From contig NZ_KB893257.1 of NCBI RefSeq assembly GCF_000374065.1, positions 124,001-188,000 of the forward strand: a DNA stretch of 64,000 nt. Reading direction: 5' to 3'. This stretch comes from Spirosoma luteum DSM 19990. GTDB lineage: Bacteria > Bacteroidota > Bacteroidia > Cytophagales > Spirosomataceae. A program made the translations under genes and the position numbers. The notes under the pieces were generated by a model. That model was not told the origin of the DNA, did not search any database, and saw only the letters and a program-made list of their open reading frames with translations. The stretch's first letter is position 1. The number at the start of each line of letters is the position of its first letter. This document shows positions 42,529 to 44,065 of this stretch, piece by piece.

Positions 42529-43335
42529 CTACGTCGATAAAGATACCGCTTTACTGTTCGACCAGGTTACGTAACTGACCAGCCCAATGCTAATCTGACT
42601 GACCAGGTCGGTTAGCGTGTAGGCAAGGTGGAACCAGTTAAAATCGATGGGTGAAACCGTCAGACCATAACCCAGCAAATAAATTCCCCAGCTACCAGCG
42701 AATAGCAGAGTCATGGTGCGGAAACTCTGGTGATCGTGACCTTTGTCCTTCCAGAGCCGATACAGGTTGATCAAAATATAGCCGTAGCACAAGGCCGATG
42801 CACCGCCCCAGCCCAGTTTCGGGCCAGCCTGAATCTCATTATCGAAAGATAGTTGCTGGTGGCCGATATAGCCTGTAAAAACCATTAATATCGATACGAC
42901 AAGTAAACGTATCAATAACCGTTTATTGGATTCCCAGGGGAGTTTGAGGGGAGCCACAACCAGCATCAGCAGGAGTGGTGCCGTTATAAACCACGCCACG
43001 TACCGGTACTGTCCTATGGCATTGTATGATTCCCGAATGAGCGTCTGGCGGTCTGTGGCATCGCTGATGGCGGGCAATTCGGCCAGTACATCATGGTAAT
43101 ATAACTGAATCAGATAATAGACCAGTCCGCTACTGGCAGAAACAACCGCCAGTAATGCTAGCGCCAGCCGCTGGGGGGGGGCGTTCAAATCGGAGGACTG
43201 GTTTCTGTTTTGGGTTACGGCCGTTATAAAAATGCCCAGAAAGATAAACGAAGCCACGACCATAAAAAAGTACGTGACCATTGGTAAAAGGCCAACCGCA
43301 CCAGCCGTTGGAATTAATGAATCTGCTAGTTCCAT
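42529..43335 (-). CDS. Microbial-rhodopsin-fold protein lacking the retinal lysine
   Basis: 268 residues with seven helices (about 18-40, 55-80, 105-130, 138-158, 175-195, 207-227, 235-258). It aligns by eye with proteorhodopsin/xanthorhodopsin over all of helices B to G: helix C YRYVAWFITAPLL (family YRYIDWLLTVPLL), helix D LLVVSILMVFTGYIG, helix F SWGIYLLGYG, helix G LAYTLTDLVSQISIGL (family LIYNLADFVNKILFGL). Functional residues: Arg111 and Thr118 are kept, Asp243 (counter-ion) is kept, but the acceptor Asp is Ala114, the donor Glu is Leu125, and the retinal-binding Lys is Gln247. It therefore should not form a Schiff base. Read from codon CAG at 42595-42597. Its ATG directly follows a hairpin plus T-run. 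Confidence 0.85.
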   Translation of the reverse strand: MELADSLIPTAGAVGLLPMVTYFFMVVASFIFLGIFITAVTQNRNQSSDLNAPPQRLALALLAVVSASSGLVYYLIQLYYHDVLAELPAISDATDRQTLIRESYNAIGQYRYVAWFITAPLLLMLVVAPLKLPWESNKRLLIRLLVVSILMVFTGYIGHQQLSFDNEIQAGPKLGWGGASALCYGYILINLYRLWKDKGHDHQSFRTMTLLFAGSWGIYLLGYGLTVSPIDFNWFHLAYTLTDLVSQISIGLVSYVTWSNSKAVSLST

Positions 43336-43369
43336 AAAAAAATGGCAGGTATTGTCAGATACCTGCCAT
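43336..43369 (-). terminator. Hairpin with U-tract between the DUF4142 and rhodopsin-like genes
   Basis: Perfect 11-bp arms ATGGCAGGTAT/ATACCTGCCAT (43342-43352 and 43359-43369) with a 6-base loop. On the minus strand seven T follow, and the rhodopsin ATG (43335) comes right after them. It is 25 bases downstream of the DUF4142 stop, so it should terminate that gene, leaving the rhodopsin-like gene to readthrough or attenuation control. Confidence 0.75.
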
Positions 43370-43393
43370 CGTCAAAATTAATCATTAATACGG

Positions 43394-44065
43394 TTACTTG
43401 ACAGTTGTCTTAACCATTGACTTAAGCGTATTAATCTGCTTTTTGGATTGATCCACTAACTGTTGAGCATACGACCGCAACGTATCATTTTTGCCGTATT
43501 GCAAATACGTGGTAGCCATGTCAATAGCATCCTGCCGCTGGTCCATCAACAGCGTGGCAAAGGTGGCATCATAGTCTTTACTCGAGGCATCATTACTATC
43601 GGTTTTCTGCAATTTCAGGTTCATGGCCTCAATGTTCTGACTCTGCTGCTGCGTGAACATCTGATTAGGACGCGTAGGCTTCAGTTGCCGCATGGTCGCA
43701 TCAATAGTGGCTATGTCGGCGGTTGTCGTTTCCAGTAGTTGTTTGGCCATCTGCTGAAGCGCGCTGTCCGTACCATTCGCAATTTCCTGTTTCAGGAAGT
43801 CCTGCAACCCCTGAGCCTGTAGTTTGGCCTGAAACGAATAGTCGAAGTCAGGGTCACCGGTAGCCGAAAGTTTCTTTAATTTAGTCACCGTCTGTTGCAA
43901 CGGCATCACGAGCTTTACTTTCGATGAGTCGACCGTAATAGAGGTAGCGGTACGCGCTGAACTGAATTGTACTGATCGCTTGGCCTGCGCGCAGGCTGCC
44001 AGTGAACTGCTGGTGGTAAGCAGGGCCAATGCCCAGATAGATACGTTGAATTGGAGTGTTTTCAT
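43394..44065 (-). CDS. DUF4142 family exported protein
   Basis: 223 residues. Signal peptide about 1-26 (ALLTTSSSLAACAQA; the Cys near 24 could also be a lipoprotein site). Residues 60-215 are mostly helical with the DUF4142 pattern: GDPDFDYSFQAKLQAQGLQ, then DATFATLLMDQRQDAIDMATTY and AQQLVDQSKKQINTLKSM. DUF4142 proteins are predicted four-helix ferritin-like bundles of unknown role, often with stress-related neighbours. Upstream of the rhodopsin-like gene, same strand. Confidence 0.85.
   Translation of the reverse strand: MKTLQFNVSIWALALLTTSSSLAACAQAKRSVQFSSARTATSITVDSSKVKLVMPLQQTVTKLKKLSATGDPDFDYSFQAKLQAQGLQDFLKQEIANGTDSALQQMAKQLLETTTADIATIDATMRQLKPTRPNQMFTQQQSQNIEAMNLKLQKTDSNDASSKDYDATFATLLMDQRQDAIDMATTYLQYGKNDTLRSYAQQLVDQSKKQINTLKSMVKTTVK

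Follow-up and report, generated by a model that had tools for sequence, protein, structure and literature searches.

Lysine-less opsins of an ESR-like subfamily, encoded next to a DUF305 gene in Spirosoma

Background

Opsins without the Schiff-base lysine are already a known class. Haloarchaeal and fungal ORPs arose through at least nine losses (PMC4915679, in part), and lysine-less genes make up about 600 of 5,558 rhodopsin genes (PMC7714340, in part, citing Yamauchi 2019). As the original prediction for the gene reported here had noted, their function is largely open in the literature seen. The available text of PMC7714340 connects yeast and fungal lysine-less opsins with regulation of the plasma-membrane H+-ATPase and pH homeostasis, and suggests that they are chaperones. 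For Rh-noK, participation in mixed oligomers is a speculation cited in PMC10308929; for FArhodopsin it is a proposal, according to the accessible part of that paper. Both crtY and brp are missing, too, from each of the eight ORP species that have no canonical opsin (Becker et al. 2016, PMC4915679, in part). Among working rhodopsins, the one that matters most here is ESR (Exiguobacterium sibiricum rhodopsin), a Lys-donor proton pump (PMC8387761, in part).

In this report, we analyzed an opsin gene in a window of 64,000 nucleotides from Spirosoma luteum DSM 19990 (contig NZ_KB893257.1), together with its relatives in the genus, the family and the order. Our main finding is that the Spirosoma group is a new variant within the known lysine-less opsins, with Lys-bearing orthologues for comparison; the literature covered, which takes in a minority of the subscription papers, gave no earlier report of the group or of the DUF305-opsin pair. 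Because the set pairs orthologues with and without the lysine at one locus and points to a candidate surface and partner, the question of function becomes testable by ordinary genetics. The set also suggests, from two lineages, an order in which a light-driven pump may be dismantled.

Results and discussion

An opsin without Schiff-base lysine, counterion and pocket proline

The reading frame has 268 open codons starting at ATG, with the extent and intactness originally described:

42529..43335 (-): 268-aa opsin without the lysine (Rh-noK), seven helices predicted (ORF, Pfam, phmmer, AlphaFold model, Foldseek)

Homology to the type-1 rhodopsin superfamily is evident from Pfam, where residues 21-253 match Bac_rhodopsin PF01036 (E 1.2e-15, 58 bits for a cut-off of 24.6), and from a phmmer comparison with PDB sequences, whose top three matches are 6nwd (Gll0198, 7e-14), psXR and 4hyj (ESR). 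PHROGs gave no match with the protein, and NCBIfam no score near any cut-off. Close matches are in Spirosoma spitsbergense (76%) and S. arboris (54%). An AlphaFold2 model built from a 3-row alignment has the seven helices of the opsin fold at modest confidence (pLDDT 67, pTM 0.65); a second model, with the S. arboris protein as lead, was worse (pLDDT 58). The best Foldseek match of the first model in the PDB is ESR (4hyj_B, E 1e-5, TM 0.50/0.59, rmsd 14.5), and the best 50 matches listed are all microbial rhodopsins, in agreement with the fold originally proposed. Since their TMq ranges from 0.36 to 0.60 and their rmsd from 7.8 to 20.8, details of the pocket are unreadable from the model.

Residue equivalences were taken from a MAFFT alignment with Lys-bearing family members. 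They are given in what we take to be bacteriorhodopsin numbering, placed through the canonical members of the family: R111=R82, A114=D85, W115=W86, T118=T89, L125=D96, D243=D212 and Q247=K216. The positions that matter most are:

42595..42597 (-): Gln247 codon (CAG), K216 position (codon read and alignment)
42607..42609 (-): Asp243, equivalent to D212; kept in 12/12 lysine-less and 22/22 Lys-bearing subfamily members (alignment)
42676..42678 (-): Leu220 at the P186 position, pocket proline lost (alignment)
42961..42963 (-): Leu125 at the proton-donor (D96) position (alignment)
42994..42996 (-): Ala114 at the D85 counterion/acceptor position (alignment)

The helix G lysine of a working rhodopsin is thus Gln247 here, which the phmmer alignments with PDB rhodopsins also place on the retinal lysine, and the primary counterion and acceptor of a light-driven pump is Ala114. 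Both replacements had been predicted, as had the retention of Arg111, Trp115, Thr118 and Asp243, and the codon and alignments confirm them. The original list of three losses was correct as far as it went and has to be extended by the pocket proline; the survival it claimed for the counter-ion region holds for R82 and D212 and fails for D85. In all, R82, Y83, W86, T89, L93, Y185 and D212 are kept. Relocation of the lysine to another helix is ruled out for this protein, whose lysines (131, 138, 173, 196, 198 and 262) all lie outside the membrane core. As an opsin homologue with an intact frame and no such lysine, it belongs to the Rh-noK class.

Lysine-less genes in twelve Spirosoma genomes

We surveyed 222 genomes of the family, 36 of them from the same genus, and found PF01036 matches in 94 and 35 of these, respectively. 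Thirty loci and 40 regions, with the window, L001, L032 and L033, gave 74 opsin ORF matches, of which 68 aligned rows remained once duplicates (L001, L032, L033, L070) and two pieces of L060 had been removed; L068 gave no opsin ORF by this method. The remaining PF01036 matches outside the genus and, within it, G207:C949 and three partial matches of G205 fall outside the survey.

A distinct subfamily comprises 34 intact rows, 22 with the lysine and 12 without, the latter found one per genome in 12 of the 36 genus genomes. A lone mutant or a sequencing error is thereby ruled out, and the case that this copy alone was mutated, which would have spoken against the original prediction, did not occur. 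Gln247 itself is not conserved: the site holds I in four rows, L in three, Q in two, V in two and C in one. D85 is absent from all 12 (A 7, G 4, S 1), as is P186 (L 7, F 4, Q 1); Lys-bearing rows have D or E at 85 in 22 of 22 cases and P186 in 21 of 22. The donor site is Q, H or L in lysine-less members and Lys (9), Gln (7), Thr (3), Asn (2) or His (1) in the 22 Lys-bearing ones, so that the nearest pump type is the ESR-like DTK, not proteorhodopsin (DTE). The original prediction was therefore right in placing Leu125 at the donor site, and wrong in deriving it from a Glu and the protein from proteorhodopsin-type pumps. Sixteen further genus genomes have a Lys-bearing copy next to the upstream gene that adjoins the window opsin (see below), which places the loss of the lysine within the genus.

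The lysine-less protein might act as a regulatory subunit in mixed oligomers with a co-resident working rhodopsin, and two of the 12 genomes (G196 and G211) do carry a Lys-bearing opsin as well. The other ten have no second PF01036 protein; in the window genome the opsin is the sole match, and the assembly is listed as 100 for completeness. Unless such an assembly misses a gene, this contradicts the role here, and we consider it very improbable.

A thirteenth lysine-less copy, L060 in G213 (Gly at 85, Leu at the lysine site), carries an in-frame stop, its DUF305-type neighbour being still open. Five Lys-bearing DTQ members (L046, L051, L053, L054 and L055, from G207, G191, G208, G198 and G188) keep the lysine and D85 and have A, L or G for W182; some Lys-bearing members may therefore not be ordinary pumps. 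A very divergent Lys-bearing DTS opsin, L005 (G192), has Pro at the D212 position and is, to our mind, presumably reminiscent of xenorhodopsins. No heliorhodopsin was matched in the 36 genus genomes, nor in any control genome.

For wider sampling, a 12-row subfamily profile was run against 390 genomes of the order and matched in 129. Among the matches listed, 24 score at least 328 bits and the next listed scores 90 bits. Six of the 24 belong to genus group g47 of another family (f12); each of these carries a Lys donor and the retinal lysine together with D85 and T89. Among the members read, which are those above the 90-bit level, lysine-less ones are therefore seen only in the window genus.

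Probable repeated loss of the lysine

Trees of 44, 43 and 46 rows were calculated with columns D85, D96 and K216 left out; relative to the 43-row tree, the 46-row tree adds the six g47 rows, drops three NDQ rows and also leaves out column P186. The window opsin groups in all three with Lys-bearing DTK and DTQ opsins, as a member of an ESR-like subfamily should; ESR itself is not a row in the trees, and the link to it comes from phmmer, Foldseek and the motif.

The lysine-less rows fall in two places, L061 and the other 11. L061 groups with the Lys-bearing DTQ gene L048 (support 99-100/96-97), and its gene order (c10, c2, c9, c1, opsin, c11) matches the L048 group and differs from the other lysine-less loci; the tree program flags L061, the basis of an independent second loss, as an unsure long branch. 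The other 11 form a set of 12 with the Lys-bearing L062 among them, the position of L062 inside L052 having support of 91/89 and 91/87 and not being starred. At least three changes between lysine and no lysine are needed, and P186 changes twice, on the 46-row tree. A single origin of all 12 lysine-less genes is rejected (p-AU 0.00314 with 43 rows, 9.8e-5 with 46 rows), with the long branch of L061 to be kept in mind; one clade of 11, without L061, is not rejected with 43 rows (p-AU 0.155) and falls to 0.0235 with 46 rows. Taken together, the trees suggest that the lysine was lost two or three times in Spirosoma, loss being the likely direction because the rooting groups are Lys-bearing.

L062, with D85 and the lysine in place, no longer has P186, and Gln occupies the donor site in Lys-bearing relatives of both lysine-less lineages. 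These residues suggest an order of dismantling, seen in two lineages only, in which the donor would go first, P186 next, and D85 with K216 last. Joint loss of the lysine and D85 is represented by only two supported independent pairs, which gives no power for statistics.

Selection after the loss

Codon models were fitted in IQ-TREE, with 11 genes as the lysine-less set (L061 left out). Omega was 0.208 for these, 0.145 for 22 Lys-bearing genes and 0.239 for the five Lys-bearing DTQ genes; for the lysine-less set, lnL was -7165, and fixing omega at 1 and kappa at 2.4 lowered it to -7482. The window gene and its S. spitsbergense orthologue (L058), both with Gln, gave a pairwise omega of 0.303 (2dlnL 40). 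Other lysine-less pairs gave 0.137 (L059-L057), 0.261 (L063-L066), 0.113 (L056-L059) and 0.176 (L064-L063), and five Lys-bearing pairs 0.044 to 0.413. By these estimates purifying selection continued after the lysine was lost, and the gene is not a pseudogene, in line with the retained opsin originally proposed, which lost Schiff-base lysine and counterion together.

The same data bear on the idea of a decaying gene, in which photochemistry became useless once the retinal supply ended and the sequence drifts toward loss. The broken copy in G213 and an omega somewhat above that of the 22 Lys-bearing members (0.208 vs 0.145) would fit such a course; 12 intact frames, an omega far below 1 and near-invariant periplasmic motifs (see below) do not, and as the five DTQ genes reach 0.239 with their lysine in place, lysine-less genes are no more relaxed than DTQ genes. 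We therefore hold decay to be improbable.

A DUF305 gene upstream and a hairpin at the start codon

The gene directly upstream, on the same strand, is linked to the opsin well beyond the window genome.

43394..44065 (-): DUF305 (PF03713) protein, its N-terminus bearing a lipobox-like motif (LAAC); 58 bases separate the gene from the opsin downstream (ORF, Pfam, motif pattern)
43341..43370 (-): 12-pair hairpin, then a T-run ending at the opsin ATG (folding)

The window copy, which is the one scanned with Pfam, matches PF03713 with 44 bits (cut-off 27), DUF4142 staying under its cut-off. A DUF305-type gene directly precedes the opsin in 29 of 36 loci laid out; the seven others are L034, L037, L038, L041, L042, L043 and L068. 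A loose lipobox-like pattern is found in all 29 proteins, with ACAQ in every row printed, from which we infer that they are exported as lipoproteins. Lys-bearing loci share their wider gene order with lysine-less ones (L051 with L059, for example), so that these are orthologous places. At the six g47 loci, where about 1.5 kb was covered to either side of the opsin, a profile of the DUF305 gene had no match.

Within a single genus, simple shared descent can account for such linkage. Mirror-tree comparisons gave a correlation of opsin and lipoprotein distances of 0.685 across 16 loci, as against 0.688 and 0.711 with two other neighbours, and of 0.80 as against 0.57 across another 19 loci.

A hairpin abutting the start codon is present at 27 of 28 linked loci, lysine-less or not, the exception being L052. 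It was scored by folding the 70 bases that precede the opsin ATG, requiring a z of at most -3 against 100 single-base shuffles and a 3' arm that ends no more than 12 bases from the ATG. Controls gave 0 of 10 outgroup opsins, 1 of 6 unlinked opsins and, for nine neighbour families, 3 of 140 starts (each guessed as the first ATG; 60 shuffles). Stem sequences are very diverse; some stems are terminator-like, with a T-run, as in the window, and others are without one (for example, L051). An Rfam search with the hairpin gave no match at the gathering score.

Conserved loops assigned to the periplasm

Membrane sides were assigned through homology to bacteriorhodopsin. Three regions stand out in the alignment as conserved, and all three lie on the side thus assigned to the periplasm:

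43003..43083 (-): residues 85-111, the BC loop with the beginning of helix C, including DRQTLIRESYNAIGQYR; conserved among opsins linked to the lipoprotein gene
42805..42870 (-): residues 156-177, region of the DE loop (YIGHQQLSFDNEI..PKLGWG)
42628..42669 (-): residues 223-236, region of the FG loop (..PIDFNWFH)

These motifs are near-invariant across the 12 lysine-less genomes. Mean pairwise identity of periplasmic and cytoplasmic loops is 0.73 and 0.29 in lysine-less rows, 0.58 and 0.29 in the Lys-bearing subfamily, 0.66 and 0.70 in the six g47 rows from another family, and 0.38 and 0.54 in six canonical DTE opsins. Lys-bearing members show the polarity too, so loss of the lysine did not create it. 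For pairs matched at a core identity of 0.46-0.55, periplasmic loops are 0.72 identical among lysine-less opsins, 0.65 among linked Lys-bearing ones and 0.66 between both, and 0.46 when one member is unlinked (12 opsins without a lipoprotein gene seen adjoining, six of them g47); cytoplasmic loops stay at 0.21-0.27 in all four sets. In these alignments, periplasmic-loop conservation tracks the presence of the lipoprotein gene more closely than that of the lysine. Since linked and unlinked opsins also belong to different paralogue groups, common descent could explain part of the pattern.

Loop polarity weighs on two other readings. Haloarchaeal ORPs encoded beside chemotaxis transducers (PMC4915679, in part) provide a precedent for a cytoplasmic signal transducer or sensory opsin. 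Here the cytoplasmic loops are among the least conserved parts, and none of the eight window neighbours is a sensory transducer by Pfam (DUF305, ABC transporter, EPSP-synthase-family enzyme, glycosyltransferase, DUF4290, MatE, URO-D and formate/nitrite transporter), so that a transducer seems a distinctly improbable role. A dark conductance or carrier for ions or protons could use the remaining R82-D212-T89 network, of which R82 and D212 are kept in 12 of 12 lysine-less members and T89 in 11. The cytoplasmic half drifts (mean identity 0.38, against 0.68 for the periplasmic half) and the donor site is Q, H or L, and we give conductance little credence.

Retinal and carotenoid genes

Neither PF15461 (BCD/Blh) nor PF03055 (RPE65-type) was matched in the window genome. 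The check proposed with the original prediction thus finds neither a canonical rhodopsin nor either of these two retinal-forming families there; other enzymes or uptake are possible sources. Across the 36 genus genomes the two families occur in 10 and 6, respectively, and among the 12 lysine-less genomes each occurs in G211 only. Both are absent from 11 of 12 lysine-less and 9 of 17 Lys-bearing-subfamily genomes (G196 counts in both; uncorrected for kinship), a trend and not a rule. The nine Lys-bearing genomes with neither family (G183, G185, G186, G194, G196, G198, G210, G212 and G216) may have another retinal source or use the opsin without retinal; in one bacterium, retinal is made even though the known genes for it are absent (PMC7734400, in part). 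In G193:C7 and G204:C1, no more than about 300 bases separate an RPE65-type dioxygenase gene from an opsin with the NDQ (sodium-pump) motif; an NDQ rhodopsin of Spirosoma oryzae has been measured (PMC7979833, in part).

Genes that could supply other polyenes are nearly universal in the genus, the window genome included: PF00494 (squalene/phytoene-synthase family) is matched in 35 of 36 genomes and PF05834 (lycopene-cyclase-type) in 36 of 36. The PF00494 gene of the window genome (G000:C13:120715-121440) is on the opsin's contig, about 2.6 kb outside the window start. Such genes would suit a receptor whose pocket holds, non-covalently, a carotenoid, retinol or comparable neutral polyene, or else some other hydrophobic ligand. 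The lysine-less pocket is indeed largely kept (W86 and W182 in 11 of 12; Y185, Tyr at W189, L93 and D212 in 12 of 12), whereas haloarchaeal ORPs have lost several of the pocket aromatics (PMC4915679, in part). P186, however, is lost in all 12, and the pocket residues are also kept in most Lys-bearing relatives and may only hold the fold. PF05834 is moreover broad and matched E. coli too, and PF00494 presumably covers squalene synthases as well. A non-covalent ligand role, which the original prediction had put forward as well, seems to us rather unlikely.

A possible light-independent partner at the periplasmic face

Homology, residue losses, more than one origin, continued selection, loop polarity, the upstream DUF305 gene and the start hairpin are what comparison of the sequences establishes. 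An intact frame, repeated loss of the lysine, and outward loops and a neighbour gene that are both kept argue that the job of the protein probably needs no light, and a light-independent role, as originally suggested, is the best reading of an opsin retained without lysine and counterion.

The reading that we favor, tentatively and as something short of probable, is that a former ESR-like pump is now a retinal-independent seven-helix membrane protein and a periplasm-facing partner, possibly of the co-encoded DUF305 lipoprotein. The ancestor would have been an ESR-like (DTK) opsin, probably a proton pump, from which D85, P186 and the Schiff-base lysine would have been lost two or three times in Spirosoma. 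The opsin would then have been kept as a retinal-independent seven-helix membrane protein, with its periplasmic side as the presumed selected surface, where it might serve in the dark for binding or docking of a partner, the lipoprotein being the likeliest one. Our guess is that the start hairpin probably sets the level of the opsin relative to the lipoprotein. A bolder version, which we think unlikely to hold in full, is a light-blind outer-face binding partner of a periplasmic lipoprotein, derived from a pump more than once, GPCR-like or chaperone-like in kind, with its dose set by the start-codon hairpin and with Lys-bearing intermediates surviving.

Comparison with known systems

Like the window opsin, Rh-noK and ORPs are, in the available parts of their descriptions, type-1 opsin homologues with an intact frame, a replaced lysine and a largely open function. 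The haloarchaeal ORPs differ in forming their own clade, in lying in many cases beside HAMP/MCP transducers and in having lost several pocket aromatics (PMC4915679, in part), whereas the Spirosoma opsins are of an ESR-like lineage, have a DUF305 neighbour, mostly keep the pocket aromatics and have Lys-bearing orthologues at the same locus in the genus. Yeast and fungal lysine-less opsins resemble them in the opsin fold without the lysine and, if the reading above holds, in its use in the dark (PMC7714340, in part); being eukaryotic, they are compared at the superfamily level only. FArhodopsins are bacterial, mostly lysine-less in freshwater members (Q, T, L or R at the site), and have a conserved gene neighbour; as far as the accessible text of PMC10308929 goes, they belong to the proteorhodopsin family, adjoin a flotillin gene and are accompanied by a working proteorhodopsin elsewhere in genomes that could be checked. 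By contrast, the Spirosoma lysine-less opsins usually come without a second opsin, and no flotillin gene is among the eight window neighbours by Pfam. ESR is the nearest pump, being the best Foldseek and the third phmmer match, and many Lys-bearing relatives share its D-T-K motif. The window opsin differs from it in having neither D85, Lys donor, P186 nor retinal lysine, and should therefore not work as a retinal pump.
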